The position numbers and the translations under genes are program-made. From positions 1 to 21,504 of the IMG/VR virus record IMGVR_UViG_3300030333_005575: DNA of 21,504 nt; one strand, given 5' to 3'. Each line of letters begins with the position of its first letter. Position 1 is the first letter of the stretch. Of this stretch, positions 1,986 through 20,475 are shown piece after piece. The notes under the pieces are model-generated. The model worked only from the letters and a program-made list of their open reading frames with translations. It made no database searches and had not been told where the DNA came from. This stretch comes from a virus.

Positions 1986-2015
1986 AAAGAAATTAATTAT
2001 ATGTTAATGTTCTTT
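1986..2015 (+). other. A/T-rich hairpin in the late leader
   Basis: AAAGAAATTAA (1986-1996) pairs with TTAATGTTCTTT (2004-2015) over 11 bp with a single bulged G. The loop is seven bases and T's continue to 2017. It resembles a weak terminator or leader hairpin just before the first rightward gene. Confidence 0.35.
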
Positions 2016-2039
2016 TTGAATGGGCCTGTGATGGGCTCT

Positions 2040-2055
2040 ATGCCAAGGAGGGCAT
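2040..2055 (+). promoter_or_regulatory. Shine-Dalgarno in a hairpin loop before the first late gene
   Basis: ATGCC (2040-2044) and GGCAT (2051-2055) form a 5-bp stem whose six-base loop is AAGGAG, the core of the ribosome site for the ATG at 2057. The hairpin ends one base before the start codon. Showing or hiding the site in this way could tune translation of the first late gene. Confidence 0.5.
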
Positions 2056-2056
2056 T

Positions 2057-2512
2057 ATGGCGGTAACCCCGATTCAAAAGTATCTTAATATGGCTTTGTC
2101 TTTGACAGCCAGTAATAAAAGCAAAACAGACATCCAGTATTCTTTGCCTGACGACTTGCGTAGGTATGAGAATTTAAAAATAAAGCATTTTTCTGTGAGT
2201 AGGTTAGAGCAAGCTGGTATGAACACTGGCGATACGCCTATAAGCGTCTTTCGCATGGATGGTAACGACAGCCTTACTCTTATGATTGCTTCTCACCCCA
2301 TTTCTATTAATCAAATTAACGGAAGTGCAATTAGTAATACTTTGCGTACAAGTTTTTTTGTTATTGGCCGTGATCGATCTGGTGCATACGGGGCTACGTC
2401 TACAGCGTTTCAATACAGAAACAACTTGCACGGGCCAGACTATACAAGCGATAGTGGAGGCACTACCGCACCAGTCGAAATACTTATTGTTCAGATAACG
2501 CTCGAGGCGTAA
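2057..2512 (+). CDS. Hypothetical protein, first gene of the rightward late operon
   Basis: The product is 151 aa, with a strong AAGGAGG ribosome site before the ATG. I do not recognise it. After a polar, helical N-terminus (residues 1-55), the rest alternates short hydrophobic strands with turns (VFRMDGNDSLTLMIAS, SFFVIGRDRSGAYG) and ends in VEILIVQITLEA. This pattern suggests a beta-rich fold as in small virion or decoration proteins. Its stop TAA overlaps the next ATG by one base, so translation is coupled to the putative small terminase. A small DNA-binding or packaging role is an alternative given its place. Confidence 0.7.
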   Translation: MAVTPIQKYLNMALSLTASNKSKTDIQYSLPDDLRRYENLKIKHFSVSRLEQAGMNTGDTPISVFRMDGNDSLTLMIASHPISINQINGSAISNTLRTSFFVIGRDRSGAYGATSTAFQYRNNLHGPDYTSDSGGTTAPVEILIVQITLEA

Positions 2513-2895
2513 TGGCTAAAAAGAAAGACGACGACAGTTTGGATAAGGTTACCCTAGGCATTCGTCTGGGGTCCTTGCCGGAGTCTACGGTAGATGCTAT
2601 GTTCGCTGGACTCGCTTGGCAGGCGGAACGTGATCATGGGGCTGCAACTCGTGCCCTGGTAGCTGCCACATTTGCGGCGGCGCGTATTGAAGCTGAGATC
2701 ATGTCTGACAACAACCATCTGACCAAAGACCGGCTAACGGCTGCCAAGCAGTTCAAAGAAGGGTTTCGGGAGGCATGTAGCTTGGTCAACAAAGAACCCA
2801 TTAACCGCAAGAGAGCTTCCATTGTGGTTGGTGAAGACGAAGCAGACCCTTCCGTGCCGTCTGCGTTAGAGCGTATGTATGGTAATCAAGAATGA
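2512..2895 (+). CDS. Possible small terminase subunit
   Basis: The 127-aa product starts within the preceding stop codon and ends 17 nt inside the large terminase gene, so the three genes are translationally coupled. It has a charged start (MAKKKDDDSLDK), then mainly helix-forming sequence (about residues 20-95), and an acidic C-terminus. Small terminase subunits recognise the packaging site, form rings and are usually encoded directly before the large subunit with this size and helical content. The sequence itself shows no helix-turn-helix I can point to with confidence, so the assignment rests mostly on position and composition. Confidence 0.5.
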   Translation: MAKKKDDDSLDKVTLGIRLGSLPESTVDAMFAGLAWQAERDHGAATRALVAATFAAARIEAEIMSDNNHLTKDRLTAAKQFKEGFREACSLVNKEPINRKRASIVVGEDEADPSVPSALERMYGNQE

Positions 2896-4966
2896 TCATA
2901 TTGAAGCTTTTAGGGCTGATTGCCTCGCAGACATTTCGTTCTATGCCGAAAATGATATTGCTCCACTCCATATCGCTCCTGAAGATGGTCCTATCGCAAG
3001 GGTCAAACTACGGCGCGTACAAAAGAGATTAGCCGAAGTAGTCAACCGCCACTGGTTCAACAGGGGCTTTCTGCGCGTTGTGGTGTGCAAGGCTCGCCGT
3101 ATTGGGTCTACCACGTTCTTTTGTATGGATGCATACCGACAAGCGTCTCTACGGCCAAATATGAACGTCGTCATCGGTGCCCAGTTAGATGACATGGCGG
3201 CAGAGATTCACAGACGTAATCACATATTCCATACTAATTATCCGTCTTCTTTGCGCCCTGAGCGGTGGGGAAGAACCCGTTCTTTTAAAGAACCCATGGA
3301 ATTTAGGCGTGATATACCCCAAGAAGAGCTTTTAGAGTGGGAAAACGGGGGACCAAAGCCCGATAGTGGGCTTAATTCTACCCTCTCAATTTTCACTGAA
3401 AGGACCCCGCTTGCACGTACTGGGGCTACAATTCAGTACCTTTTGCTCTCTGAGTTCGCCAAATACCGCAATCAAAGCACGATTATTAAGGAAATGTTCC
3501 CTACTGTGCGTAAAAACACTGGGGCTATCGTCATTGATACGACTGCGGAGAGCCGGGGGGATTCGTATTCTCGTTTGTGGGAAGAGGCCGTTGCCGGTCG
3601 CTCCGAGTTTGAGCCTGTGTTTATCTCCTGGCTCGATGATGAACAGCAATGCCACCAAACGCCGTCCCAAGAAAATGAAGCGTTGTTCTATGACTGGCTT
3701 CAATGCTTTAAAAGAAACGATGGAACTGGACTCGAGAAATACTCCTCTCTTTTAAATCTTGATGATGATGAGTTTGACTTATTGCAAAACCACATCGTTC
3801 CAAGATGGACAAAAAACGAAGACGAGAGAATCTACCACCCAATGGGGTGGATTGAGTGGAGACGCTGGGCTATCCAAGACCGTTGTGACGGTAAAGCCAA
3901 GATATTTAAAAACCAGTACCCCACTCACTGGCGCGAAGCGTTTATGTCTTCGACGCTTACCATCTTTGATATGAGCCAGGTGTCTAACCAGGCAGAGCGA
4001 ATTAAAGAAGAAGACCCTGCGGTAAGGGGTGAGTTAATTACAAAGAGTGGGCGTAGAGGGTTAGATCCTGATCCAGAAGCTATGATGTCCCAAGTAAATC
4101 AAACACATCATATGGTAACTCCAAATATGTTTGAGTTTGTACCAGAAAGCTTCGGACCCATTAAAATATACGAACCGCCCATTCCAGGCGAAGAATATAT
4201 TATTTCCTCAGATTATGCAGAAGGACAAAGCGCCCAATGCGACTACAACGTCATCCATGTGTATAAACGAGGGGATACACTAGAGCAGGTAGCGCATTTC
4301 CGTGAAAAGTGTTACCCTGAAGAATCCGCGTCAGAAGCTATTGCCCTTGGAGCCTACTACAATATGGCTTGGCAAATGCCTGAAGTTAATTCTTGTGGGG
4401 CTGCCGCACTGGCAATGTTTAGGTCCTGCTATCCCATGGACCGCATCTTCCGTAGAAAAACAGCCGATAACATCGAAGGAAGCAATCCATCAAAACTCCT
4501 GGGCTGGAGAATGACGGGTCGAAGTAAGTCAGAGGCAGTAAGTGCTGCGACGGCTTATTTTAAAAAAGGACTATGCATAATTAAAAATTCCAATACACTG
4601 CGAGAGTTGGAAGTTTTTGTTAAGAAAAGCTCCCGTATGCTACCTGAAGCTATGGATGGGACAGATCCTATTACAGGCGAAAGGTATCACGATGACGAAG
4701 TGACATGCATGGTGTTGGGAATTTATGGCAATCGCCAACTCCCATACCGTGGCAGAATAATGGTAGACGATAACTCGACTGCCACAAAAGAATGCTCCCA
4801 CTTAGTTGTTGCAGGTGGAGTGTGTTTAAAGTGCCGTAAAAAGATACCTATGGCCGAACCCAAACCCTTGACTTTTGACCAGCTTAGGGCGACGGTTAAA
4901 GCAAATACGAAGAATAATAATGTGCGCGGCTCTAATGCGATGTTAAATTTCTGGATTCAAAGATAA
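2879..4966 (+). CDS. terL: Terminase large subunit (DNA-packaging ATPase/nuclease)
   Basis: This is the motor that pumps DNA into the procapsid and cuts concatemers. The ATPase part shows a terminase-type Walker A, KARRIGSTT (residues 71-79), a Walker B ending in Ser-Glu (LLLSE, 188-192) and a coupling motif IDTTAES (219-225). NQYPTHWREAFMSS (345-358) is the usual linker motif before the nuclease. The nuclease has Asp445 and Asp455 (SSDYAEG and CDYN), Glu502, and Asp605 and Asp606 in HDDEVT. At 695 residues it is long for the family. The extra C-terminus carries a Cys-X-His...Cys-X2-Cys cluster at 639-652, a possible zinc site. The ATG at 2879 overlaps the previous gene; a later ATG at 2892 is out of frame. 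Confidence 0.95.
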   Translation: MVIKNDHIEAFRADCLADISFYAENDIAPLHIAPEDGPIARVKLRRVQKRLAEVVNRHWFNRGFLRVVVCKARRIGSTTFFCMDAYRQASLRPNMNVVIGAQLDDMAAEIHRRNHIFHTNYPSSLRPERWGRTRSFKEPMEFRRDIPQEELLEWENGGPKPDSGLNSTLSIFTERTPLARTGATIQYLLLSEFAKYRNQSTIIKEMFPTVRKNTGAIVIDTTAESRGDSYSRLWEEAVAGRSEFEPVFISWLDDEQQCHQTPSQENEALFYDWLQCFKRNDGTGLEKYSSLLNLDDDEFDLLQNHIVPRWTKNEDERIYHPMGWIEWRRWAIQDRCDGKAKIFKNQYPTHWREAFMSSTLTIFDMSQVSNQAERIKEEDPAVRGELITKSGRRGLDPDPEAMMSQVNQTHHMVTPNMFEFVPESFGPIKIYEPPIPGEEYIISSDYAEGQSAQCDYNVIHVYKRGDTLEQVAHFREKCYPEESASEAIALGAYYNMAWQMPEVNSCGAAALAMFRSCYPMDRIFRRKTADNIEGSNPSKLLGWRMTGRSKSEAVSAATAYFKKGLCIIKNSNTLRELEVFVKKSSRMLPEAMDGTDPITGERYHDDEVTCMVLGIYGNRQLPYRGRIMVDDNSTATKECSHLVVAGGVCLKCRKKIPMAEPKPLTFDQLRATVKANTKNNNVRGSNAMLNFWIQR

Positions 4967-4975
4967 GAGGTTAAA

Positions 4976-6418
4976 ATGCCGGTTAGGGATATTTATGATT
5001 TGCCTCCTGTTCCCGTTGAAGGCCAGTCCCCCATGGAGTTTTTTGGGGTTGATCAAATGGTTCCTCGCCTTGGAGCATACGATCCAGAAGCAGACCTAGT
5101 TAACACGTATGGCACCCTGCCTCGACTGCCAGGAAATATCGAATCCACACCATTTGGATTAAATGCACCCGCTGGTCGAGAAATGACTGGGACACAGCCT
5201 GGATGGGCAGTGGCAAGCCAATACCCCGGCACACCCGTTATTGCACCGCAAGAATCTCTACGAAGACAGTCCTACGAAAACGTAGACCCCACATCATTCC
5301 AAAGAATCCCTGGCACAGCACTTACAGAAGAACGAGTTCCTAGCATGATGGAGCCAGGGATGGCTGTAGGCGGATTGGCGGGAGGCGGCGGCTCGGCAGG
5401 ACTTGGAGCAGGAATACGAGTAGCGGGACAACAAGGGGCTGCTCGAGTAGGAGGGCCTGCTAGCCGAGCAGCACAAAACCTGTTTGATGCTAGAGCAGGA
5501 AGGGATGTAAGTGGTCCATCTTTGCGACCACCGAAAAAACCTTTTCCTGAGCCTGGGCAATTGTTTGACGATTATGGCTACCGTATGGTGCCAGACGAGG
5601 TGTATCTCCAGCGGGCTCGAGACGCGGGGTGGCCGCTAGAAGGCCGCGCACTTTTAAAGAACGAAAGGGGGATGTTTGCCAATACAGGAATCCGGCAGAT
5701 GACTCCTGAGCAGTTGGCGGCTCAAAGAAGTGGGACTCTTCCATACACAGAGGCTGTGACTTATTCAGAGCCCTGGTCTACTAAATACATCCCTACTAGC
5801 TACAAGCAAGCGCCTGGAGTTCGAGATGCTCGCTTTCAAGAAAGGGTTATCCAAGAAGCCCCTTTCAATCCAAAACCTCGTGGTCGAGTTCCTGAAGCGT
5901 ATGAGATGACAATTCAGCGAGCGGGAGGTCATACAGACGAAGCCATGGAGCGACTAGCTGCAAGAAATCAAGCTTTGCAGGCTGAAATGGCCAGGAACCA
6001 AGCATTGATTGGAACTGGTAAACAATTGGGAGGACCCCTTCTTCCGTTTTCTGGCCTTGCTGGCACAGTTGGCGGTGGGGTTGCAGGCCTTGCTTATGAT
6101 GAAGTGTTTGGTGAAAGCGGAACGACGTATCAAGATCCTTCAGGTAAAGAACGAGAAGGCCAACGCGCCCGCATTTTTGCTGAAATGACCCCAGAACAAC
6201 GAAAAGGACTTGGCGCATCTTTGCATGGGCAGGTCCTCCAAGGTTATGGACTCCCAGCAGATACCCCAACAGAAAGCACTGCAAAGATGCTGGAGCTACA
6301 GGGAAAGCACGCCGCTAATGCAATTCGTAGCTTAAGTGCAGAAGAGTTTCTCAAAGAAGGGGCTCGTCGAGTTCGTAATTTTGAAACCACAGGCGAGTTT
6401 TACCCAGGAGGTGAGTGA
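4976..6418 (+). CDS. Hypothetical Gly/Ala-rich protein between terminase and portal
   Basis: The product is 480 aa and is unrecognised. The first 125 residues are Pro-rich and polar. Residues 128-160 are a Gly/Ala run (VGGLAGGGGSAGLGAGIRVA), and 351-376 are a second Gly-rich hydrophobic stretch ending in VAGLAY. Between them lie charged helices (about 300-345). Such glycine-zipper-like segments occur in proteins that insert in membranes during phage DNA ejection, so a minor virion protein is a reasonable guess. The start is set by AAGAGG followed by TTAAAATG, a 14-mer repeated exactly before the fibre-like gene at 16556. The gene's stop overlaps the region just before the next start. Confidence 0.65.
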   Translation: MPVRDIYDLPPVPVEGQSPMEFFGVDQMVPRLGAYDPEADLVNTYGTLPRLPGNIESTPFGLNAPAGREMTGTQPGWAVASQYPGTPVIAPQESLRRQSYENVDPTSFQRIPGTALTEERVPSMMEPGMAVGGLAGGGGSAGLGAGIRVAGQQGAARVGGPASRAAQNLFDARAGRDVSGPSLRPPKKPFPEPGQLFDDYGYRMVPDEVYLQRARDAGWPLEGRALLKNERGMFANTGIRQMTPEQLAAQRSGTLPYTEAVTYSEPWSTKYIPTSYKQAPGVRDARFQERVIQEAPFNPKPRGRVPEAYEMTIQRAGGHTDEAMERLAARNQALQAEMARNQALIGTGKQLGGPLLPFSGLAGTVGGGVAGLAYDEVFGESGTTYQDPSGKEREGQRARIFAEMTPEQRKGLGASLHGQVLQGYGLPADTPTESTAKMLELQGKHAANAIRSLSAEEFLKEGARRVRNFETTGEFYPGGE

Positions 6419-6420
6419 TC

Positions 6421-6996
6421 ATGGTTGATCGAGCAGAAGGCGTATTGCCAGCAGAAGTAGATGTCACCGACATGGAGGCATATTACGAAGAAATGGGAGC
6501 GCCTCTTCTAATAGAATTGCTGCAATCTAAAGCGCGTGGCGCGCAATCGTTTTCTGGGTATACACAGACCATGCCTCAAGGGCCTACCGCGACTACGCCA
6601 GGAGCTTTGGCAAGAGAAATGCAAGCTCGAGCAGCAGAAATTGCAGACCCGACAACTGGACCAAGCACTCGCCTGTCCGCCGCTCACAAACTCAGGTCTG
6701 CCAAACACTCCAGGGTGCAAAACCCAGGATTCCCAAATATGCCTGCAGTAAAACAACTCGTAGATTCTAGGATGTCTGGCCAGGGAGCGCCCATGCAGCA
6801 GCCAGCGGCACAACAGCCCGTTCAGCAACAGCCCGTTCAGCAACAGCCTATGCAGCAACAGCCTATGCAGCAACAGGCTGAAAGTCCGTTTTCTCAAGCC
6901 AGGAAGCCAGAAGTTTACAAGCCTTTAAACGCGCAACCAGCAGCAGAAAGGCCTCGGCCAATGCAAGCAATTCCTAACCAAATGATGGGGCAATAA
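6421..6996 (+). CDS. Hypothetical Gln/Pro-rich protein with QQP repeats
   Basis: The product is 191 aa from the ATG at 6421. I chose this over the GTG at 6415 because AGGAGG at 6406-6411 lies nine bases from the ATG but only three from the GTG. Residues 12-35 form a likely helix, and the middle holds basic helical sequence (STRLSAAHKLRSAKHSR). Residues 131-150 are four five-residue QQPVQ or QQPMQ units encoded by a 15-bp tandem repeat. The C-terminus is Pro/Gln-rich and disordered-looking. I know of no function; the composition suggests a flexible minor virion or assembly protein acting with its two neighbours. Confidence 0.65.
   Translation: MVDRAEGVLPAEVDVTDMEAYYEEMGAPLLIELLQSKARGAQSFSGYTQTMPQGPTATTPGALAREMQARAAEIADPTTGPSTRLSAAHKLRSAKHSRVQNPGFPNMPAVKQLVDSRMSGQGAPMQQPAAQQPVQQQPVQQQPMQQQPMQQQAESPFSQARKPEVYKPLNAQPAAERPRPMQAIPNQMMGQ
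6811..6870 (+). repeat. 15-bp coding tandem repeat, four units
   Basis: Two identical units CAACAGCCCGTTCAG (6811-6840) are followed by two identical units CAACAGCCTATGCAG (6841-6870), and a partial fifth begins CAACAG. The pairwise identity shows stepwise duplication, first of a unit and then of its variant. Copy number can be expected to vary between relatives. Confidence 0.9.
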
Positions 6997-6997
6997 C

Positions 6998-7570
6998 ATG
7001 GACTTCAGGAGCGGAAGCAAAGGAGCAGGGTCGGCTGGCAAATTCAGGGTGTACAAAGCTCCGTATAAGCCAACATACGAAGAGACTCACAGTTGGTGGG
7101 AGAACAATCTGCCAACGATACTAAAAACGGCAACACAAATAGCTGCGTCACCACTTGATTTGCTTTTGCCTGGTGCCGGAGTGGCTACAGGTGCTGTTGT
7201 TGGCGAAGGGGTTTCTCTCGCCACAAGAAAGGCTCAAGGTCGAGCAGTGGGAGACGAGGAGCTTCAGCAGGCCGGAGTGGGCGCTACAACTGGAGTTGCG
7301 TCAGGTGCTGCAAAATGGGGAACTTCAGAGCTTGGAGAAGCCCTAAAAGCGCAACGGAAAGCGGAGGCTCTGGAAAAAGCACGGCAAGGTTATGGCTCTA
7401 TAGACAATGCCACGAAAGGCCTTAGTGCTGGAGGGGAGCAAGTGAGCAGTTATCAAAATCGGTTTTCGGTGCCTGGAGTAAATAATCAAATGCTTCCTCC
7501 TCCAAGTAGGTTTGAGTTTGAAGAAGGATTTGATGACGAACTTAACAGTGCTCCCTTTCGGATGGGTTAG
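6998..7570 (+). CDS. Hypothetical protein with hydrophobic Gly/Ala segment, before portal
   Basis: The product is 190 aa and is unrecognised. After a basic N-terminus (residues 1-25) comes a Trp-containing stretch. A hydrophobic segment at about 48-77 (SPLDLLLPGAGVATGAVVGE) is followed by a second small-residue run near 92-106, and the C-terminus is acidic (EFEEGFDDE). The hydrophobic segments are Gly/Ala-spaced, like glycine-zipper membrane-active helices, and resemble those of the 480-aa protein two genes upstream. It starts two bases after the previous stop and ends three bases before the portal start. Its ribosome site is poor, so translation is probably coupled. Confidence 0.65.
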   Translation: MDFRSGSKGAGSAGKFRVYKAPYKPTYEETHSWWENNLPTILKTATQIAASPLDLLLPGAGVATGAVVGEGVSLATRKAQGRAVGDEELQQAGVGATTGVASGAAKWGTSELGEALKAQRKAEALEKARQGYGSIDNATKGLSAGGEQVSSYQNRFSVPGVNNQMLPPPSRFEFEEGFDDELNSAPFRMG

Positions 7571-7572
7571 AA

Positions 7573-9672
7573 ATGCCTAAGTATAATGAGCAACAAAAAG
7601 TCCTAGATTACGTTAAAAAATGCGTAAAAAGGAATAAAGACGCACGAAAGCCACTGGAGTATCGTTGGTATGAAAATGCTGCTTTTGCCGCTGGTTATAC
7701 TAGTATCGAGTATGATCCTCGCACTCAACGTCCTGTTACTCTTGGGGGGGGAGCTACTGAGTCTAGCAATCCACAAGTTCAGGACAAATTAAGAAAATAT
7801 CACGCAAAGCTTGTGTCCCCTCGAATGATGCCTGAATGCATTCCCGGCTCAAACGAACGTGACGCAAGAAAAAGAGCAGATGTAGCAAACTCTATTATTC
7901 TGCACTTTTGGGAAAAACGTGAAACGGTATACGCCAAACACTCTAGCATGATGAATATGATGGTGTTTGGTAATGGCATTTGGGCAACTCAGTGGGATCC
8001 AAATGCTGGTGAATGGGCAGAAGACGTTTTATACAACGAAGGACAGCCTGAGTACGCCCAATACCCTATGCCAGAGTTAAATGAATTTAATGAGCCAATG
8101 CTAGTAGATATGCCCTTGGAAGAAGAGCGGCTACTAAAAACTGTTCGTTATCAATCTGGCCTCCCAAAGATTCGCTCAATTCACCCATTTAATTTCTTTC
8201 CAGATCCTCACTGGCGTCACTTAACAATTGACCAGTGTATGAATTATGCAGAAAGAAAATTAGTTCCAATTGACCTGGTAAAGCTTTATTTTCCTGATTT
8301 GGATATTGATACGGTCCAAAGAATTGAGGAGCCAGAAGATGCGTTTTTGTTCCGAGAGGCAAATGCGACTTTTGGTATGCGAGACCCAAGCCTTTCTGCT
8401 CCTCAAGAAATGGTAGAGGTGTGGGATTTTTATCACGCGCCAGTTCTTTCTGAGAAAAACGGATTGGATTACCAGAGTGGATTTCGTTGTATCTATGCTG
8501 GTGACCAGATAATTAAGTTGGTTAATGGCCTTCCTTACAACGATTACCCGCACGCAACATTCCGAGATCGACAATTCTCCGACAGGGGTTGGGGTCTTTG
8601 TGTTGTTGATGTGCTCCGCCAAGCGCAAAAGCGTTTGGACTTAGTGGAACGCATTGAGATCCGGGCGGCAGAGAGGACGGCAGATCCTCCCATGCTAAAG
8701 CCTCAAGGGTCTAACGATGTAAACTTTCAGGGTTTGCCTGGTGAGATCTATGAATACATTCCCTATGGGGAAGAGAAGCCCACATTCATGGTCCCGCCTC
8801 AGTTGCCGCAACACGTATTTCAAATGCGTTCAGATGCGATGGCTGACTTAGAGGCGTTGAGTTTGACTGCTTCTCCTGTTGGGGGTTCGACGCCTGCTCG
8901 AGGGGATAGTGCTGCGTACTTGGATCGTCTTCTTGAAGAGAACCAGGTTGCGATGGCTCCTACGGTACAAGAAATTGAAGCGGCTCAAGCTCACCAGGCA
9001 ACCCAACTCGTCCGACTTTGCCAAGACCATCTACCCATCGGGTATCGCTTTGCATTAATGGGTAAAAGTGAACAGCCTTCAGTATATGAATTTGATGGGC
9101 TGCCATTTAATTTAATTGATGTGCGTATGGTTCCTGGCTCTGCCGCTGTTTCATACCCTAATCAAATACGAAGTTCTATTATGCAGCTTGCTGCAAATGG
9201 AATGCTTCAAGAAAGTACTCCTCGGACAGACGCAATTGTTGAGCTATTATTAGGTGCTCCAGTTGCAAATAAACTGACCGATATTGAAGAACCTGGCGAT
9301 AAAGCTGTTGCAGAATTAAATGTTTTAAGAATTCAAGATGGGCAAGAGCCCTTTTTTAAACCTTGGATGAATCACGAGAAGCATATCTCGGTTTTGTTGG
9401 AAAATATGCGTGACCCTAAATTCTTTTTAGAGTTTACTGTTGACCAACAATCTAAATTAGAACAATTATTGCAAAGACACCAGTCGGCAATTGCTCCAAA
9501 TCAGGCACCTATGCAGCCTGGTATGGAACAACCTGGTGGGGGCGTTAATCCTCTTGAACTCCTACAGGGCGGAGGGCAGGAGGGCGCACCCCCATCAGGG
9601 CCAGCAATGGCACCGGCTATAGCGTCAGGTTTCGCAGGGGATCTTGGAGGTGGGGGGCCACCACAAGTTTAA
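7573..9672 (+). CDS. Portal (head-tail connector) protein
   Basis: Portal proteins form the twelve-subunit ring at one capsid vertex through which DNA enters and leaves. The 699-aa product has the order typical of large podovirus portals: a charged helical start with YRWYENAAFAAGYTSIEY (30-47), a conserved MMVFGNGIWATQWDP (129-143), a wing region, the long helix QAQKRLDLVERIEIRAAERT (about 350-370) and SPVGGSTPARGDSAA near 433-447. The last 60 or so residues are Gly, Pro and Gln-rich. It is followed by the scaffold and capsid genes, the expected order. Assignment is by overall pattern and context. There is only a weak ribosome site, so coupling to the previous gene is likely. Confidence 0.88.
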   Translation: MPKYNEQQKVLDYVKKCVKRNKDARKPLEYRWYENAAFAAGYTSIEYDPRTQRPVTLGGGATESSNPQVQDKLRKYHAKLVSPRMMPECIPGSNERDARKRADVANSIILHFWEKRETVYAKHSSMMNMMVFGNGIWATQWDPNAGEWAEDVLYNEGQPEYAQYPMPELNEFNEPMLVDMPLEEERLLKTVRYQSGLPKIRSIHPFNFFPDPHWRHLTIDQCMNYAERKLVPIDLVKLYFPDLDIDTVQRIEEPEDAFLFREANATFGMRDPSLSAPQEMVEVWDFYHAPVLSEKNGLDYQSGFRCIYAGDQIIKLVNGLPYNDYPHATFRDRQFSDRGWGLCVVDVLRQAQKRLDLVERIEIRAAERTADPPMLKPQGSNDVNFQGLPGEIYEYIPYGEEKPTFMVPPQLPQHVFQMRSDAMADLEALSLTASPVGGSTPARGDSAAYLDRLLEENQVAMAPTVQEIEAAQAHQATQLVRLCQDHLPIGYRFALMGKSEQPSVYEFDGLPFNLIDVRMVPGSAAVSYPNQIRSSIMQLAANGMLQESTPRTDAIVELLLGAPVANKLTDIEEPGDKAVAELNVLRIQDGQEPFFKPWMNHEKHISVLLENMRDPKFFLEFTVDQQSKLEQLLQRHQSAIAPNQAPMQPGMEQPGGGVNPLELLQGGGQEGAPPSGPAMAPAIASGFAGDLGGGGPPQV

Positions 9673-9694
9673 CTTTTGATAAAGGGATCAGGGA

Positions 9695-10405
9695 ATGAGT
9701 AAATCAGCAGAAGAGCGTATTGCAGAATTGGAAAACCGATTGAAGTCTGTTCAAAATGATAAAAATCAATTGCAGCAGCACTACAATCAAGCTTATCGCG
9801 CAATGGAACAGGCGCAGCAAAATGAAGCTTTTTATCGAGGACAAGTTGAATCTGCCTCTATGCAGCAACACACGCAGTCTACAGGAGAATACTCCGGGTA
9901 TGACTCAGTGGATGTTGGTGACCAGGCAAGTGTTCAGGGACTCGTTGAGCAGATGATTGCACAGCGACTCGAGCCGCGTATGCAAGCAGTTGAACAATAT
10001 GCATCAGACGCTCTTCAGCAGACTGCTGGTCGAGAGATAGATCGTGCTTTGGAGGCGTTTAAAAAATCGCACCCAGAGTCAAAAACGATTATGGATTTTG
10101 ATCGGCTAATTATGCTTGATGCTTCGGAAGAAGTTAAGCGACGACAAACTGTTGGACAACCTGTCGGAGATGTCAAAGACATTGCTCTCCAGGTAGCCCA
10201 AAATCGGGTCAAGAAGTTTAACGACATGACCTCGAAAATGGCAGAAGAGAATCGGCGTCGGCGTGAAGCCGCTGAAAGCAAAGCAATGCTTCCCGATATG
10301 TTTTCTGCCGCCGGATTTGAAGAAATGCCAAAATCTCCCGGCACTCCCGAGGAGGCTGGCAACTTGCTTGAAGATTTAGTGCGCCGAAAAAAAGCGCGTA
10401 AATAA
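9695..10405 (+). CDS. Capsid scaffolding protein
   Basis: The 236-aa product is strongly charged and helical. Residues 5-50 form a heptad-like coiled coil (ERIAELENRLKSVQ), followed by a Gln-rich stretch. The C-terminus is basic and ends RRKKARK, as in scaffolds that contact the acidic inner face of the capsid protein through a C-terminal helix. It lies directly between portal and major capsid genes, the normal place for scaffolds. The start has AGGGA six or so bases upstream. Scaffolds are poorly conserved, so composition and position carry the call. Confidence 0.82.
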   Translation: MSKSAEERIAELENRLKSVQNDKNQLQQHYNQAYRAMEQAQQNEAFYRGQVESASMQQHTQSTGEYSGYDSVDVGDQASVQGLVEQMIAQRLEPRMQAVEQYASDALQQTAGREIDRALEAFKKSHPESKTIMDFDRLIMLDASEEVKRRQTVGQPVGDVKDIALQVAQNRVKKFNDMTSKMAEENRRRREAAESKAMLPDMFSAAGFEEMPKSPGTPEEAGNLLEDLVRRKKARK

Positions 10406-10416
10406 GGAGACACACA

Positions 10417-11799
10417 ATGGCCTTTAATAAGACCAGCCAAACGTCCGTAGGAGCGTTTAGTGAACTATTCCAGTACACTTACGCTGATGTAATTATCAAG
10501 CTTCTTGACTCTGTTGATGATGTTGAGAAGTGGATTGACTCCATTAACCAGGAAGACTGGAATGGTGGAGACTCAATGTACCAACTGTACAAGACCTCTG
10601 AAGGAAGTGGAAGTCGTTTTGTTTCTGGTGGACCGGGCGCTGCTGCACCTGTTCTTCCTGCTTACAACCCACCTTCTTACAGTGAGTCCATGGTTCGATT
10701 GTACCCCCACATGGATATTGTGGAGATTACTGGACCAAAGCTCATGCGAGCACATGACAAGCCTGGTATGTACCGGCAGATCATGGATGAGTTGGTTTCT
10801 GATGTGAAGAACTCACACAAAAACCGAGTTGGACCTAAGTACTGGGGTGGAACGCATGGTGCTGCACTTCCTGGTGCTGCTGGATTTGCAAACTCTGGTG
10901 TGATTGGTGTTATTCCGGCTGGGTCTGGTAACTTTACTGATTCTACTGGGGCTACTCCAAATATTCCTTCTCGTCAGCGTGAAACAGATACCACTTTGAC
11001 AAACACTAAAGCATACATGGCAACTTATGCTGGTTGTCGATACCTTCGTCCTGGTATGCAAGTTCAAATTGGTACTCCTGTTCAGTTGCAAGGTAATACT
11101 GGAACGAGCGGTATTATTCAGACCGTAAACCAAGCAGCACAAACATTCACATTGGATGTTGCGCTGGGCAACAATGCGGCTCAGATGTTCATTGTTGAAG
11201 GTGACGCAAACGGAAACGAGTGGGGCAACTCGATTACTGGTCTTGCTGATGCGATTGAAGACATCGGTACATACCACGGAATTGATCGTGCCACAGCAGC
11301 GCCTTGGCAGTCTTTTATTGTCCGAAACGGCAATACCCTTCGTGACTTCAACCACTGGCGAATCACTAGCTTGTTGATGCGAATGGCAGATCTTGGGCCT
11401 AAAGATGTTGATGAGATGGATCCTGTTATCTTCTCACACAACTCTTTGCTTCAGGTTTACCTCCAAGAGATTGACCCTGTCTACATGCAGACAGACCTCA
11501 AAGCTCTTAAAGGTCACAAAACGATTGCATACCAGTACGGTGCGCGTCAGATTCCATGGGAGACTGCACGGTCTGCTCCATTGAACAGCTACACCATCAT
11601 GGATCGTTCTGCGATGAAGCGAGTGAAGCTTGGTGATTACGGTTGGGACACCTCAACTGGAGCCATCTTCAAGCAGATTCCTGGCACGTTTGCCTTCCAA
11701 GCGTATGCTTACAACGAGTTTGAACTTGTTTGTGAGAACCCACGCTGCCAAGGCCGTGAAGAGGACATCCGAGTACCAACTGGGTTGATTAGCACCTAA
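10417..11799 (+). CDS. Major capsid protein, HK97-fold type
   Basis: The 460-aa product has the features of HK97-fold capsid proteins. Its helical N-terminus is followed by YPHMDIVEITGP (96-107), a Gly/Thr-rich region, then a small beta barrel-like insertion with RPGMQVQIGTPVQLQ (211-225). NSITGLADAIEDIGTYHGIDRA with a following Trp (271-297) recalls the conserved GL..AI..GT..GI.R pattern. Two cysteines near the C-terminus (439 and 444) could form a local disulfide or metal contact. It has one of the best ribosome sites (AAGGAGA), a tandem stop (TAA TGA) and a terminator directly behind, all fitting a very highly expressed gene. Assignment is by pattern, size and its place after the scaffold. 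Confidence 0.9.
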   Translation: MAFNKTSQTSVGAFSELFQYTYADVIIKLLDSVDDVEKWIDSINQEDWNGGDSMYQLYKTSEGSGSRFVSGGPGAAAPVLPAYNPPSYSESMVRLYPHMDIVEITGPKLMRAHDKPGMYRQIMDELVSDVKNSHKNRVGPKYWGGTHGAALPGAAGFANSGVIGVIPAGSGNFTDSTGATPNIPSRQRETDTTLTNTKAYMATYAGCRYLRPGMQVQIGTPVQLQGNTGTSGIIQTVNQAAQTFTLDVALGNNAAQMFIVEGDANGNEWGNSITGLADAIEDIGTYHGIDRATAAPWQSFIVRNGNTLRDFNHWRITSLLMRMADLGPKDVDEMDPVIFSHNSLLQVYLQEIDPVYMQTDLKALKGHKTIAYQYGARQIPWETARSAPLNSYTIMDRSAMKRVKLGDYGWDTSTGAIFKQIPGTFAFQAYAYNEFELVCENPRCQGREEDIRVPTGLIST

Positions 11800-11808
11800 T
11801 GACTGACT

Positions 11809-11833
11809 GGGGGGCTTTTGCCCCCTAGCTTTT
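11809..11833 (+). terminator. Intrinsic terminator after the capsid gene
   Basis: GGGGGGC and GCCCCC (plus a G-T pair) close a TTTT loop, then TAGCTTTT follows. The stem is all G-C and strong; the T tract is short and interrupted, so read-through is likely. It resembles the leaky terminator found after the T7 capsid gene in purpose: high capsid output, lower output for the genes beyond. Confidence 0.75.
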
Positions 11834-11845
11834 AAGGAGGATGAT

Positions 11846-12298
11846 ATGAGCTTTCAAAAAGCACATAACGTATCAAACGAGCTTGGAGAGGTGATTGTAC
11901 AAACAGTTGAAGACGATCTGAGTGGAACAGGGCAACTTGCTTTGACTTTGCCACCGCAGTTTAAAAGCTATCGAGTGCTTGAGTTGGGAATTGTCACAAC
12001 AAATGCAACTGGATCATCAGGAGTAGACATTACTTTTGGAAATGCTGCTGGAGGTGCTCAGTTTGTTGGAGACCCGACTCCTGCAACTTTTACAATTGCG
12101 GCTGAAAAAGGGGTTACTTATAGCACTGCTGGGGCGTTTGATTTTAACGCTGCTGGTACAGGGTCTGTTGATTCTGGTGGTGTCCCTGTTTTGGAAAAGG
12201 GTGAAGGTGTTCACTTTACTGTTACTGGGGTTGCCGACGCGGGGACAACCGCCGTGGCTTTTGCGCGACTTGCGCCAAACATTGAATACAAAGGATAA
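11846..12298 (+). CDS. Probable virion protein (capsid decoration or head-fibre candidate)
   Basis: The 150-aa product lies just behind the capsid terminator with a perfect AGGAGG five bases from the ATG. Its sequence is beta-rich, full of Gly, Thr and Val, with few charges: GQLALTLPPQFKSYRVLELG, VDITFGNAAGG, GVHFTVTG, VAFARLAP. This fits an immunoglobulin- or jelly-roll-like shell that binds the capsid surface. Small beta proteins right after the capsid gene are commonly decoration proteins in phages. I do not recognise the family, and a trimeric cement protein, head fibre or tail-side protein are all possible. Confidence 0.55.
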   Translation: MSFQKAHNVSNELGEVIVQTVEDDLSGTGQLALTLPPQFKSYRVLELGIVTTNATGSSGVDITFGNAAGGAQFVGDPTPATFTIAAEKGVTYSTAGAFDFNAAGTGSVDSGGVPVLEKGEGVHFTVTGVADAGTTAVAFARLAPNIEYKG

Positions 12299-12981: not shown

Positions 12982-13587
12982 ATGCTTCCAATGATGGAAA
13001 ACCGGGATGATCTAATTCGTCAAGAGTTAGATTTTTTCCGGCACCTTGTAGAAACTAGCGATGCCGGACCCCACAAAGAATGGGAGACACGCGCTAATGG
13101 GTTAGATGGCTTATTGCCTGACGAAAAGTTTTATCTACGTTTTGTAGAAAAGAACTTTGACGGAGTTCAGTTAAATCGTTGGGTTGTATTCGGGCAAAAG
13201 CCAAATAACGAAAGGTACCGGGGAAAGAAACCCATCTTCACTATTATGACCATTGAGGTCCCTGGTGAAGCTGGGTCTTTCGGGACTCCTTCGGAAGTCC
13301 ATTTGGATTCGTTGCGTGTACTGGTTCTCGACTGGCGCGAGGGCCGTCACGCAGCTATTCAAAGGATGCAAGATCTAAAAGATAAAGCTCAGGAAACTCA
13401 ACTCAAAGATGCTATTAATGAAGCAAATGGTCGAGTAGACGATATTTTTTGGATTTGGAAACGTGCCACTGGAGAAGACATGAACTTCTGCCTTGGCGAA
13501 GATGGTTCAGGACCAAACTACGGTAGTAAATACTTTGGGTCAGCGTTTGACCGAAATAAAACTACCTCTAGCATTATTATACCGTAA
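12982..13587 (+). CDS. Hypothetical protein, probable neck-region component
   Basis: The product is 201 aa from the ATG at 12982; ATGs at 12991 and 12994 are possible alternatives, but AAAGGG at 12970-12975 suits the first. Sequence: charged helix (RDDLIRQELDFFRHLVE), a middle with strands (RWVVFGQKPNNERYRGKKP, FTIMTIEVPGEAG), then a long charged helix (RHAAIQRMQDLKDKAQE) and an amphipathic one with Trp (DDIFWIWKRAT). It ends inside the adaptor start (one-base overlap), indicating coupled expression with the neck. I do not recognise the fold; a neck or connector-associated role is inferred from position only. Confidence 0.6.
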   Translation: MLPMMENRDDLIRQELDFFRHLVETSDAGPHKEWETRANGLDGLLPDEKFYLRFVEKNFDGVQLNRWVVFGQKPNNERYRGKKPIFTIMTIEVPGEAGSFGTPSEVHLDSLRVLVLDWREGRHAAIQRMQDLKDKAQETQLKDAINEANGRVDDIFWIWKRATGEDMNFCLGEDGSGPNYGSKYFGSAFDRNKTTSSIIIP

Positions 13588-14360
13588 TGAATGTAGAAAA
13601 CGCTGTACGCCGACTCAATGGATATTTGCAACGCCGTGGGAAGGTGGACGGCTCTGGTGGTTGGACTGAACAATACCTACTAGACCTTCTTTCTGATGCA
13701 AACCTAGATATGTACCACCGGGTAGTAAACTACGGCCCGGAGATATTTCAGATTACAGACAGGTTCACTTACGAAGCAAATGCAAATGAAGTAGACCTAA
13801 ACGTAAAACTGTCTGGTTTGCCTATGGCAATTTGGTACGCGGGTCTTCTAAATAAAGATGAAGACATTAGCGTAAACAATACTCCTGCACAGCTTAATAT
13901 GCCCCGTAGAACGAATATGGAGTCTACTGGGTTTACAAGCGCCGTTAATTCAAGCACGAGCCTACAAGGAGCAACCTCCATAGATTCGTTGATTGACATC
14001 CCTAGCTTTAGTTTTGGCGGTGGTGGTACCGTGCAGGCGTTCTTTATGGGCAAGAAGTTCTCTATTCGACCCATACCAAAGAAAGAAGTTTATGTTTATA
14101 TGCGGTGGACTCCCGATCAGCTTCCTGACCTAATAGATAAGGACCAGGAGCTATTGGGTGGGTTTTTGCCCCAGTTCCATTCTGCAATTGTGTACAAGGC
14201 TGCAATCCAAGCTAAAAGCGCAAAGGGTGAAGACATTTCACAATTATCTGCGCTGTATCAAGAAGTGCTTGGGGAGTACGACTCAAATCTAAAGATGGGT
14301 TGTCGTCAGCGTCAGCGCCAGCAGCCACAACAAAGAGATTCAATGCGATGGGAGTACTAA
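13587..14360 (+). CDS. Probable head-tail adaptor (neck) protein
   Basis: The 257-aa product follows the layout of podovirus adaptor proteins that dock under the portal: an N-terminal helix plus WTEQYLLDLLSDANLDMY (about 26-43), the strand region FQITDRFTYEANANEVDLN, a plastic Gly/Ser loop, a basic strand patch KKFSIRPIPKKEVYVYMRW and the helical end LLGGFLPQFHSAIVYKAAI with an Asp-Ile-Ser-Gln-Leu helix. The Arg/Gln-rich tail (CRQRQRQQPQQRD) is unusual. There is no clear ribosome site. The ATG overlaps the previous TAA by one base, so it depends on coupled translation. Its stop touches the next ATG. Pattern recall only; the family name is not certain. Confidence 0.7.
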   Translation: MNVENAVRRLNGYLQRRGKVDGSGGWTEQYLLDLLSDANLDMYHRVVNYGPEIFQITDRFTYEANANEVDLNVKLSGLPMAIWYAGLLNKDEDISVNNTPAQLNMPRRTNMESTGFTSAVNSSTSLQGATSIDSLIDIPSFSFGGGGTVQAFFMGKKFSIRPIPKKEVYVYMRWTPDQLPDLIDKDQELLGGFLPQFHSAIVYKAAIQAKSAKGEDISQLSALYQEVLGEYDSNLKMGCRQRQRQQPQQRDSMRWEY

Positions 14361-17232: not shown

Positions 17233-18837
17233 ATGGTAACCAAACTACCACTTCCAAAAGGACCCAGCAATCAGACTGGAATGGGCGCAACTCCTGGCAC
17301 TCAGCAGCGAGCAAAAAGAAACCTTGCTTCTGGCGGTGGGTATAACCCAAACATGCCTGTAGGCAAACAAATTGCCCAGCAAGCTGCAAGCAGCTACCAG
17401 CAAAGCAAAACGCCTGTTGGGATCCCAGGAATGACTCCTACGGCACCTTCTGTGCGAAAGCTTACGCCAGCCATGAAGCAGCCACCGCAGGTCACTAGCG
17501 GACAAGCTGCCACAGGGCGGCCTGTTGTTACCAGCGGACAAGCTGCCACAGGGCGGCCTGCTGTTACTCAGGGAGCGTTCGATCCCACAAGAGGATACAA
17601 TGTGCTCGCAACTATGACGCCGCAGGAAATCCTAGAAACAAACAAAGCTCTTGGAATGTCCAACCTCACAGAGCTAGGACGCCCGAAATCTTTGCAATTC
17701 TACCAAGATTGGGAAGACGAAAAGGCAGAGGAGGAGGAATACGATCCAAATGCGCCAAAAAAAGGAGTGGAAGAGGCTGCTAAGCAAGTGTCTGAGGCAT
17801 TAAAAGAGCTAGATGAGCTAGAAGTTAGTAGTGACGCAGGCTATCAGGCAAAAAGCGCAGAAGAAATGCAGGCTTCGCTTGATGATGAAACATCTGGGCT
17901 TCCTGGTGCGCCTGCGTCTCCAACGCTTAAAAAGCCGGAAGTCCCTGAAACTCCAGATCCTTACGATGGCGTAGACCCTACACTTGGGACAGAGAACGTA
18001 CAGGCGATTGAGGATTTTGTTGAAAAGTATCTTGAAAAAAGTGGTGACAATGCCATTGGCCTCGACCCGGAGAAAAAGAAACAAGCCATAGAACTTCTTG
18101 ACCAAAAGTACGCAACGCACTTGCAGCAAGTTCTTATGGGGTTAGATCGACAAGCTGCGATGGCAGGGACCTTTGGCTCTTCCGCCCACACCATGAACAT
18201 CAATGCTGCGATTTCGGGCTCTTTGCAGCAGATGGCTTCTGAGTACATGGGCTTAGAAGTAAAAGACATGGAGGCCGTTGAGGCTGATTACGCTCAAATG
18301 TTTGAAGAAATGAAGGGCGTAACTCAACAGTTCAAAGATCTTGAAACAATGGCCATGGATTTGGAAAAGCTAAACCAAATGGCTGCAGACTTAGGCATTA
18401 AAAATTTCACAGCGGCAATCCAGAAATATATTGCTGAAGGGGATATTGCTGCCCTAGACCTTGAGAAATATGGCCTTGACCTGCAAAAATTCCAGGCACT
18501 AATTAACAAATGGGGGCTTGAAGCCGATACCTATACGAAACTTTTAGACCTAGAGCAAGAGTCGGAAAAACTTGCAGCCGAATTGGAGCAAGCGGGTCTA
18601 GGCGTTGCCACTATGTTTGGTGAAGATGTGGCTAATTACGTTAGCGGCCTTTTAGGAATGATTGAGACCCAGTACGAAGGGGCAGACGATGAGGGATACG
18701 GGGCTTCTATTTTTGTGGCTCTTGGGCAGGCGATGTCAGATGTAGCAGAAGGAAAAGATTCGGATGAAGTTGCAGCGTGGCTTCTAGATACTCTTTCTAA
18801 AATTGCGGCGGCCCTGGATGAAGACGCATACGGTTAA
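17233..18837 (+). CDS. Probable internal (ejection) virion protein, helical
   Basis: The product is 534 aa and is unrecognised. Residues 1-130 are low-complexity and basic (KLPLPKGPSNQTGMGATPG) with a 12-residue duplication, VTSGQAATGRPV then VTSGQAATGRPA. About 160-240 is very acidic (EDEKAEEEEYDP). The remainder is helix-rich with Leu/Ala/Gln heptad-like runs (DLEKYGLDLQKFQALINKW; EQESEKLAAELEQAGLG), which suits a coiled or ring-stacked internal protein. The stop of the fibre-like gene overlaps the ribosome site (TTAGGAG). With two large neighbours it forms a 3' set that resembles the internal core/ejection protein genes of podoviruses in order and size. No catalytic motif is visible. Confidence 0.6.
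   Translation: MVTKLPLPKGPSNQTGMGATPGTQQRAKRNLASGGGYNPNMPVGKQIAQQAASSYQQSKTPVGIPGMTPTAPSVRKLTPAMKQPPQVTSGQAATGRPVVTSGQAATGRPAVTQGAFDPTRGYNVLATMTPQEILETNKALGMSNLTELGRPKSLQFYQDWEDEKAEEEEYDPNAPKKGVEEAAKQVSEALKELDELEVSSDAGYQAKSAEEMQASLDDETSGLPGAPASPTLKKPEVPETPDPYDGVDPTLGTENVQAIEDFVEKYLEKSGDNAIGLDPEKKKQAIELLDQKYATHLQQVLMGLDRQAAMAGTFGSSAHTMNINAAISGSLQQMASEYMGLEVKDMEAVEADYAQMFEEMKGVTQQFKDLETMAMDLEKLNQMAADLGIKNFTAAIQKYIAEGDIAALDLEKYGLDLQKFQALINKWGLEADTYTKLLDLEQESEKLAAELEQAGLGVATMFGEDVANYVSGLLGMIETQYEGADDEGYGASIFVALGQAMSDVAEGKDSDEVAAWLLDTLSKIAAALDEDAYG
17491..17562 (+). repeat. 36-bp coding tandem duplication
   Basis: Units at 17491-17526 and 17527-17562 differ at only three positions, and a 28-bp core is identical (17497-17524 and 17533-17560). 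The synonymous sites are mostly unchanged too, so the duplication looks recent. It adds 12 residues, VTSGQAATGRPV/A, to a disordered N-terminal region. Confidence 0.9.
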
Positions 18838-18855: not shown

Positions 18856-20475
18856 ATGGCCCGTTTTAGGGATCCAGGGGGAGACCCCAATGAAATTCGC
18901 GCTAGAGAGTTGGCCCACCAAAGAAGGCTGGCAAACCCTGGCTATCAACTGTTAAATGCAGGCCTTAGCACAATGGCTAAAACATTAGGCGCTTTGGCCG
19001 TAAATGCGGCAAGTTATGAGTGGTTTGGTGGCAAAGAAAAGACAGAGCTAGAGGCGAAGAAATTTGTAGAGTCAAATCGGCAATTTCAGAAGACGCATGA
19101 CTTGGGCGTAAAGCAACACGAACATAATGTAAAAAAACAGCAGTACGCAAACGCAGCAGCCGCTGCGGAAATAGGGTCTAATGCTCTTACTAGAAATCTT
19201 TCCAACGTAGACCCCAGTGTAAGAAAAGCTGCGATGAGTTCTCACTTTGGCCCAAAAACAAAAATGGTAGACTACGAAGTTGGAGTAAAAGACCCTTCAA
19301 CGGAATTTCCATCTGCACAAACAGAGCATTACTTCAAAGGCTATAAAGAGCCTATAATGGCCCAAAGAGAAGAGGCCATTGACTATTTTAAAGACCTGTC
19401 CCAAGAGCAGCGGCAGCAAGCAACGGCTCTTAGAGACCAGCTTAGTAATTTTGAGAAAGCCCTTGCTGCTCTTCCCCAAAGCCCTGCTCGAGATGCTTTA
19501 ATTGCAGCCCATGCTTTAAAGCTTGGAATGGACGCTGCTGCTGCAGATCAACTGCGGGCTAGGCTTGATGAAGGCAGATCTCTCGCCATTTCTGAGACAT
19601 CTACTGCGATAGGAAAAGCGCCTACACCAACTAAAACGGGAGGCGGCTCTGGAGGTCGCGGAGCAGGAGGCAGAGTCGTTGATGCAAAGAATGCCGCTGC
19701 AGCCTATTTGCTTTATAAAGAAGCCATGGACAATCCAAATGTTGGTAGTTCACCGGGCATTATTGGCAACGCAACACCCGAGCAGCAACAAAAAAAGCTT
19801 GAAGGGCTAAAAAAACGGGCCATAGATAGTGCAGCGGCTGCCAACCAAGGGAAAGGTAATCTTAAGATAGACCCAACAAGCAATATGGCAGCCCTTAGCG
19901 GATCTGAGCTAGATACTTACAGAGTAACTCACGGTAGGGATTCTGAAGCAAATAAAGCAGATTACATGAATAAGCTTGGGGACCCCGCTACTGCAGACAC
20001 CATACTCCCGAGAGTAATTAACAGGCTTAAGGGCTCGTATCTCAGTGCGGTACCTAATCAAGAAGACGTACAAATCATGCGAGATACTACGCAGCCTCTT
20101 AACAAAAGAATTGCCGCCAGAGGCAAAGTCTATAATCAACTTAAAAAGAGTCCCACGGCGATGATGGCGTTAAGAAATCAGGCGTGGGCGGTGCGGCAAT
20201 CAACGAACAGAGATGCCGCTGAATGGGCAGCACCAAAAGCCAAAGCGGAAACAGGTTATTGGAAAACGCCGGAAGGAAAAACGACATGGAATCGGCTCGG
20301 AACCGTAAAAGCCGGGGTTATGCCAGATGGCAGGGACTCATCCGGCTTAATGACTGACATCAAAAAAGCACTAAATGAGGGTAAAATAAACAGTGCTCAA
20401 ATAAGCGCAGCTTTGGACAGAGGCGACTCGCTAGCGCAAATTCATGCAGAGTTGGTCCCCAAACCCGTGCGCTAA
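18856..20475 (+). CDS. Probable internal (ejection) virion protein
   Basis: The product is 539 aa and is unrecognised. The N-terminus has a basic helix then an amphipathic, small-residue segment (about 30-56, AGLSTMAKTLGALAVNAAS), which could be membrane-active. Charged helices follow. A Gly linker (TGGGSGGRGAGG, about 261-272) divides the protein into two halves. The C-terminal half is helical and basic, ending DSLAQIHAELVPKPVR. GGAGGT lies five bases before the ATG, so the start is well supported. It sits between two other large orphans. Position after the tail genes, Ala/Gln-rich helices and the amphipathic segment fit the internal proteins that podoviruses send into the cell envelope, but no enzyme domain is visible. 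Confidence 0.6.
   Translation: MARFRDPGGDPNEIRARELAHQRRLANPGYQLLNAGLSTMAKTLGALAVNAASYEWFGGKEKTELEAKKFVESNRQFQKTHDLGVKQHEHNVKKQQYANAAAAAEIGSNALTRNLSNVDPSVRKAAMSSHFGPKTKMVDYEVGVKDPSTEFPSAQTEHYFKGYKEPIMAQREEAIDYFKDLSQEQRQQATALRDQLSNFEKALAALPQSPARDALIAAHALKLGMDAAAADQLRARLDEGRSLAISETSTAIGKAPTPTKTGGGSGGRGAGGRVVDAKNAAAAYLLYKEAMDNPNVGSSPGIIGNATPEQQQKKLEGLKKRAIDSAAAANQGKGNLKIDPTSNMAALSGSELDTYRVTHGRDSEANKADYMNKLGDPATADTILPRVINRLKGSYLSAVPNQEDVQIMRDTTQPLNKRIAARGKVYNQLKKSPTAMMALRNQAWAVRQSTNRDAAEWAAPKAKAETGYWKTPEGKTTWNRLGTVKAGVMPDGRDSSGLMTDIKKALNEGKINSAQISAALDRGDSLAQIHAELVPKPVR

Follow-up and report, generated by a model that had tools for sequence, protein, structure and literature searches.

The stretch of DNA analyzed here, hereafter the window, comprises the first 21,504 nucleotides of a virus record of 44,615 bases (IMGVR_UViG_3300030333_005575). 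It contains three genes, g1, g2 and g3, between the gene of the large terminase (TerL, 2879-4966, +), identified by a PHROG terminase match (E 1e-13), and the portal gene (7573-9672, +). The portal matched a PHROG head-tail adaptor (E 3.9e-12) and a PHROG portal (E 1.1e-10), and weakly resembles T7-type and P22-type portals in Pfam and PHROGs. A 257-aa product at 13587-14360 gave a weak match to the SU10 adaptor (E 5.4e-5, 24.2 bits against a cut-off of 27), and on account of these weak portal and adaptor matches a short-tailed particle is likely for this uncultured phage group. A preliminary description had placed three unrecognised genes at 4976-7570, and the ORFs at 4976-6418, 6415-6996 and 6998-7570 do form a tight run on one strand, with g1 starting 9 bases past the TerL stop, g3 starting 1 base past the g2 stop and the portal starting 2 bases past the g3 stop. 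The premise that TerL and portal are normally adjacent held for four of six named records (P22, phiEco32, phi296 and MW202692) and not for MW202622 and Shocker. The search for tRNAs returned none, no Rfam family was found at the gathering threshold, and promoter-like sites occurred at chance level (11 observed versus 10.8). Terminator-like sites were above chance over 2000-12000 (19 versus 10.2, sd 3.2).

The first gene, g1 (4976-6418, +), encodes 480 aa, with an N-terminus carrying PRLGAYDPEADL, two Gly-rich hydrophobic segments and a diverged middle. Its first, Gly/Ala-rich segment (residues 128-160; 5357-5455, +) opens with a run of 20 residues free of charged residues, Asn, Gln and Pro, equalled in length by 5 of 500 shuffles, and its second, Gly-rich one (residues 351-376; 6026-6103, +) holds the hydropathy maximum at residue 355, which 93 of 500 shuffles matched. 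The third gene, g3 (6998-7570, +), encodes a glycine-zipper protein of 190 aa immediately before the portal; its hydrophobic zipper segment (residues 48-77; 7139-7228, +), located by hydropathy, peaks at residue 50 (39 of 500 shuffles as high). All these segments lie where they had originally been placed. Neither g1 nor g3 had a match in Pfam or PHROGs at E<=1, and their AlphaFold models (pLDDT 40.0 for g1 and 41.3 for g3, both from shallow alignments) are too poor for fold assignment.

The middle gene, g2, encodes a Gln/Pro/Met-rich protein of 191 aa if it starts at an ATG (6421-6996, +) or of 193 aa if it starts at a GTG (6415-6996, +). The ATG is more likely to be the true start, because it is preceded by the Shine-Dalgarno-like AGGAGGTG (6406-6413, +), read from the sequence within the 3' end of g1; the GTG would make g2 overlap the end of g1. 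Four weak matches were obtained for g2 in Pfam and PHROGs, the best being Extensin_1 (E 0.0018, 18.5 bits against a cut-off of 105), all with the appearance of low complexity, so that the three products are unrecognised, as had been proposed. A DNA-binding label drawn from a single PHROG match (E 0.48) is at chance level.

Searches with TerL and portal retrieved IMG/VR loci at 63-98% portal identity. The comparison covers 25 distinct loci, the window included, in which the gap between TerL and portal is complete; a 33% partial portal match (L061) was left out, duplicates (refetched contigs and L031) were removed, one-sided loci were uncounted, and two near-identical pairs (L014/L015 and L037/L059) are still among the 25. 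All 25 gaps hold two or three main ORFs, including a protein A followed by a protein B, which in the window are g2 and g3, respectively; in L013, L014, L015, L016, L017, L033, L037 and L059 the two names reflect position and composition rather than established homology. An extra first gene stands before A in the window, L019, L002, L014, L015 and L045. Throughout the 25 loci the spacing is -29 to +11 bases from A to B and -10 to +18 bases from B to the portal, with long overlaps possibly overstated because start codons were picked mechanically, and in 11 loci one base is common to the B stop and the portal start. The position of the B end relative to the portal start suits translational coupling.

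The A proteins share a layout that could be followed in an alignment of g2 with 11 others (A4): an N-terminal IGAxLL-type stretch, Gln/Pro/Met-rich linkers and an IYxPL or IYxNL motif. Several also have a basic V(K/R)Q-type motif, and most finish with one of the A(I/F/M)xPN type. In g2 the corresponding elements are MGAPLL (6493-6510, +), where the rest of the family is IGAxLL-like, PAVKQLVDSR in the middle (6742-6771, +), VYKPL (6913-6927, +), and MQAIPNQMMGQ at the C-terminus (6961-6993, +). Comparison by hhalign of window-type A with the eight nearer A proteins, the long ones of L003, L004, L005, L011 and L024 being left out, gave a score of 37.2 (probability 71.6, E 3.5e-5), whereas the best of 60 column shuffles scored 17.4; with the wider A set the probability was 33.5. 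By its ordered motifs and this profile match g2 fits the protein A family. The homology rests on the shuffle-controlled hhalign and not on plain HMMs: an HMM of sister A ranked g2 first in six frames (E 1e-5) with heavy composition bias, placed it second at E 0.35 once the same five long proteins were removed, and missed it when trimmed to the last 70 residues.

The N-terminus of g1 (P-R-x-GAYDPEADL) was found again in L003, L004 and L005, joined within one ORF to an A-type C-terminus; the fused ORF of L005 contains, in addition, a segment rich in Gly and an A-like TPEQ..IGAxL stretch. The existence of such fusions suggests that g1 and A may work together.

The B proteins are 100-227 aa long, except for the longer B of L002, L021 and L022. 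In the sister B proteins a Gly-rich hydrophobic part is mostly followed by an FFE-type acidic stretch, a Pro-rich sequence and a YGVxNPxGF-like end. The B of the window, L019, L002, L021 and L022 is another version, called here the window subclade, which joins sister B mainly via a PGxG-containing stretch (probability 49.6, 36 columns) that the g3 zipper segment overlaps; over the whole profile hhalign gave a score of 21.8 (probability 2.3) versus a maximum of 18.5 in 60 shuffles. An HMM of sister B found g3 at E 0.014, and one from a closer subset found it at E 3.1, ranked below g1. By these comparisons window g3 is only weakly linked to the sister B proteins. A profile search of solved structures returned nothing convincing for sister B (TraT, E 0.22) and no match for window B.

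The cassette is real, conserved and fast-turning. Mean column identity, over sequence sets that differ, is 74% among 10 portal sequences, 29% among 13 sister B proteins and 26% among 12 A proteins. Between the window and L002, TerL DNA is 97-100% identical, g1 is 94-100% identical at its start, 59-84% in its middle and then back to 95-98%, most of g2 and g3 (6503-7552) is 42-59% identical, and the portal is 91-100% identical, bar one 150-base bin at 83%. The corresponding amino acid identities are 99.7% for TerL, 98.0% for the portal, 49% for g2 and 31% for g3; in L002, then, g2 and g3 are both replaced between near-identical flanks. Relative to the window, the portal is 91% and B 28% identical in L022, and the portal 94% and B 26% in L021. 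In L019 g2 is 93-98%, g3 80-91% and mid-g1 75-89% identical to the window at the DNA level, and because this locus keeps g2 while g3 and mid-g1 differ, parts of the cassette can change separately. The idea of a functional set that travels together thus stands for g2 and g3, which are paired in 25/25 loci and replaced together in L002, with the qualification from L019 that the two need not change together. It does not extend to g1, which is a lineage-specific addition to the conserved g2+g3 set.

This turnover bears on the suggestion that the cassette is a packaging accessory, modulating terminase-portal docking or DNA cutting. The location between TerL and portal is the one point in its favor. 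Pfam and PHROGs gave no family of nucleases, ATPases or DNA-binding proteins, and the suggestion is weakened by the conservation of both would-be partners, TerL and portal, next to a changing cassette, so that we regard it as very improbable. The values of dN/dS between the window and L019 (0.62 for g1, 0.09 for g2 and 0.33 for g3, with 0.06 for the portal as comparison) indicate that all three genes evolve as proteins. Low-complexity filler, that is, disordered proteins under weak constraint and without any single function, would account for the pLDDT of about 40 obtained for g1 and g3 from shallow alignments and for the high ratio of g1, but it is extremely improbable in view of the ratios of g2 and g3, the ordered motifs of A and the A-B pair in 25/25 loci.

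Glycine-zipper segments are of the kind used for membrane entry, and they are found outside phages too. Zipper spacing occurs in five heptads of g1, equalled by 0/1000 shuffles, and in two of g3, equalled by 4/1000 shuffles and by 10/1000 on repeat, which bears out the zipper-like character first read from the two proteins. Across the record, heptads were counted in 17 ORFs of the window and in 36 rows outside it, the first part of ORF 20490 and minor ORFs before 2057 being excluded; of all these, only g1 and g3 had at least two. Of 26 B proteins, 21 had more zipper heptads than shuffles at the 5% level; those of L007 and L022 were not significant, and L005, L012 and L017 had zero. Among 25 controls (13 T7 proteins, 11 P22 proteins and one gap ORF) at least two heptads were present only in P22 gp7 and T7 gp16, both ejection proteins; the ejection proteins T7 gp14, T7 gp15, P22 gp20 and P22 gp16 had zero.

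The relation to known ejection proteins was screened by hhalign with seven proteins against four profiles, and the most conspicuous of these 28 comparisons was that of P22 gp7 with sister B (probability 48.8). With the gp7 family (8 sequences) the probability rose to 81.9 (E 1.1e-5), a score reached by 0/25 shuffles and 0/25 controls keeping small-residue positions. With just the last 60 residues it was 20.3 (E 0.0011), and the zipper end is missing in 3/8 gp7 relatives. For the window subclade of B against gp7 the probability was 0.2, with 3/25 shuffles as good. Neither PF25688 nor phrog_598 matched window g3 at E<=1; PF25688 against sister B gave at best 15.3 bits (L004), under its cut-off of 28, and phrog_598 had no match in the 11 sister B proteins scanned. 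P22 gp7 and B are alike in size, the eight gp7 relatives being 209-230 aa long; the Gly-rich C-terminal zipper of gp7 is where sister B aligns. They differ in that B usually has a Pro-rich tail past the zipper and diverges fast, whereas gp7 is, in a passage of one study, the most conserved P22 ejection protein (PMC10883804). They differ in gene order as well: the gp7 gene lies after the tail genes, beside gp20, and the B gene before the portal. A section of a review has a gp7-type ejection gene adjoining a gp20/gp15-type one (PMC8954989), whereas g3 adjoins the portal.

Zipper families gave a similar picture. Gly-zipper_Omp (PF13488) scored above its cut-off of 25 in the B of L003 (32.0) and L004 (31.2) and matched at E<=0.05 in 5 of 13 sister B proteins, with none at E<=0.5 in L010 and L014 and none at E<=1 in window g1 and g3. 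At E<=1e-3, zipper parts of 4 of the 11 sister B proteins scanned (3/8 + 1/3) matched tape-measure PHROGs, and further matches were to endolysin-type and unknown families. Such likeness, found in several sister B zippers and not in window g1 or g3, is at motif level, common to varied membrane-associated proteins, and says nothing firm on descent. Because zipper similarity may be convergent, the claim made here is that B would work like these proteins, not that it belongs to their families. The earlier proposal of a membrane channel accordingly draws on the zipper spacing, on PF13488 in two sister B proteins and on the likeness of sister B to gp7, and does not extend to a gp7 or PF13488 match for window g3; as judged from these sequences, it is favored over the packaging accessory.

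Fast turnover and membrane-like segments would also suit a role in host takeover or exclusion, with B an infected-cell membrane protein, for example holin-like or for superinfection exclusion. A hydropathy of 1.6 is reached by 10 of 23 B proteins, in line with such a role, the maximum of window g3 being just 1.35. Yet B lies within the virion gene block, against the portal in 25/25 loci, the C-terminal tails of the sister clade are Pro-rich and share an end motif, and the zippers match tape-measure and ejection proteins, besides the endolysin-type and unknown families, so this role is quite unlikely.

By position, the nearest known proteins are T7 gp6.7 and gp7.3, which parts of a structural report describe as small virion proteins ejected on infection and mostly unresolved in the T7 structure (PMC11784390). 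Their genes lie a few genes upstream of the portal, and g2 and g3 too are found shortly before it; in T7, unlike here, gene 7.7 stands between 7.3 and the portal, and TerL is not beside the gp6.7/gp7.3 genes. The Pfam families of gp7.3 and gp6.7 (PF11653 and PF17570) had no match in g1-g3, and gp7.3 contains one zipper heptad (18/500 shuffles). In the eight hhalign comparisons with gp6.7 and gp7.3 the probability was <=0.7 throughout, with gp7.3 slightly above all 30 shuffles for 3/4 profiles. Taking gp6.7, gp7.3, gp13 and gp14 of T7 with gp20 and gp16 of P22 (24 profile comparisons), it was never >0.7, and gp7.3 and gp20 were slightly above all 30 shuffles in 4/24. A similar positional argument for small ORFs upstream of the portal appears in part of the Peru-2 preprint (PMC13320782).

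The same T7 report, in the part that concerns gp7.3, has its C-terminal loop binding the nozzle and proposes that it helps assembly (PMC11784390). A and B might likewise be portal assembly factors, with B chaperoning or plugging the portal ring, A tethering the scaffold or core, and no membrane entry. This would agree with B adjoining the portal in 25/25 loci and with the short shared motifs that end most close A and B proteins behind Pro/Gln-rich stretches, which are somewhat like the gp7.3 loop. However, zipper spacing and Gly-zipper_Omp matches are unexpected for a soluble chaperone, and a portal-binding factor should co-vary with the portal, whereas A and B change while the portal is 98% identical; assembly factors are therefore an unlikely reading.

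The TerL-portal interval probably (roughly 0.55) holds a cassette of genes for minor virion proteins that form part of the DNA-delivery, or ejection, machinery. The best reading is that A and B would be portal-coupled ejection (pilot) proteins, positionally like T7 gp6.7/gp7.3. B would be made together with the portal, packed near the portal channel and released ahead of the DNA, whereupon its zipper helices would insert into the host envelope. A would be a largely disordered adaptor, whose short end motifs may dock to a conserved portal or tail partner, and g1 a helper particular to its lineage, combining zipper and A-like elements. Through turnover, entry would then be adjusted to differing host envelopes or exclusion systems.

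A more specific version, doubtful at present, is that an outer-membrane ejectosome component with the role of T7 gp14 or P22 gp7 has been relocated from the ejection operon to a translationally coupled place directly before the portal, together with a disordered adaptor, the two turning over as a cassette. If B played a gp14-like role, this would amount to relocation because the gp14-like gene adjoins gp15, as stated in a section of the review (PMC8954989). Further downstream, a block of ORFs (17233-18837, 18856-20475, one at 20490 and one of 2431 aa beyond the window) has a size that plausibly fits tunnel proteins, and showed no family match and no zipper in its counted parts. Elsewhere, an ORF at record positions 30860-31423 (+, 188 aa, hydropathy 2.16) could be a late-region membrane protein, which would speak against relocation.

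No close named relative emerged: searches of 50,697 phage records returned no match for the portal at E<=1e-5 and none for g3 at E<=1, just seven records at E 3-7 for g1, and 691 records for TerL, every one below 60% identity and at 20.7-27% among the 40 matches listed. The MCP query matched, in named phage records, Microbacterium phage Shocker only (two records, E 4e-4), and a pattern-based scan with the portal, able to pick up close relatives only, had no match among 84,980 species genomes. A literature search, weak in subscription journals, recognised no paper on a cassette between TerL and portal.

The part of the review that treats ejection proteins describes them as diverging fast and as often identified from size and synteny, not from sequence (PMC8954989). 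A position fixed between TerL and the start of the portal, zipper spacing and turnover amid conserved flanks would together flag candidate entry-channel proteins in uncultured phages. The window and L002, whose backbones differ mainly in the cassette, would let the role of the cassette be compared. If the relocation is true, near-identical phages with a swapped delivery tip would constitute a natural swap experiment for host-entry specificity.

Midway through the major capsid gene (window 10900-11199) lies a second mosaic stretch, in which DNA identity to the IMG/VR relative L019 is only 57-59%, with the bins on either side at 81-82%. Directly past this gene lies a GC-rich stem-loop with a T-containing tail (window 11809-11825), which is a plausible candidate for a terminator.

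The ORF at the end of the window (20490-21503) is broken by a gap in the record, as ten Ns lie immediately past the window, at record positions 21505-21514. The next ORF is large, encoding 2431 aa (record 21521-28813), and pairwise comparison revealed that a domain roughly 50 residues long occurs in both (48% identity across 48 residues, E 2.7e-16). The copy of this domain in the 2431-aa ORF was also matched in seven phage records, including gp26 (147 aa) of Pseudomonas phage Littlefix, itself a member of the Schitoviridae. Further on in the record, a small plus-strand ORF of 188 aa (record 30860-31423) has a single strongly hydrophobic segment, with a hydropathy of 2.16, and possibly encodes a lysis or membrane protein.

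The interval between TerL and portal is also occupied in named phages: MW202622 has a 92-aa ORF there (10057-10335 of the compared locus), the N-terminus of which is strongly hydrophobic (hydropathy 2.66), and in Microbacterium phage Shocker two small ORFs fill this position. L045, an IMG/VR relative of a separate lineage, carries an additional ORF at 467-1000, ahead of the gene for the Gln/Pro/Met-rich protein A, and its Pro-rich product of 177 aa looks different from that of g1, the lineage-specific first gene of the cassette in the window. Thus, the cassette may accept different genes in its first slot.
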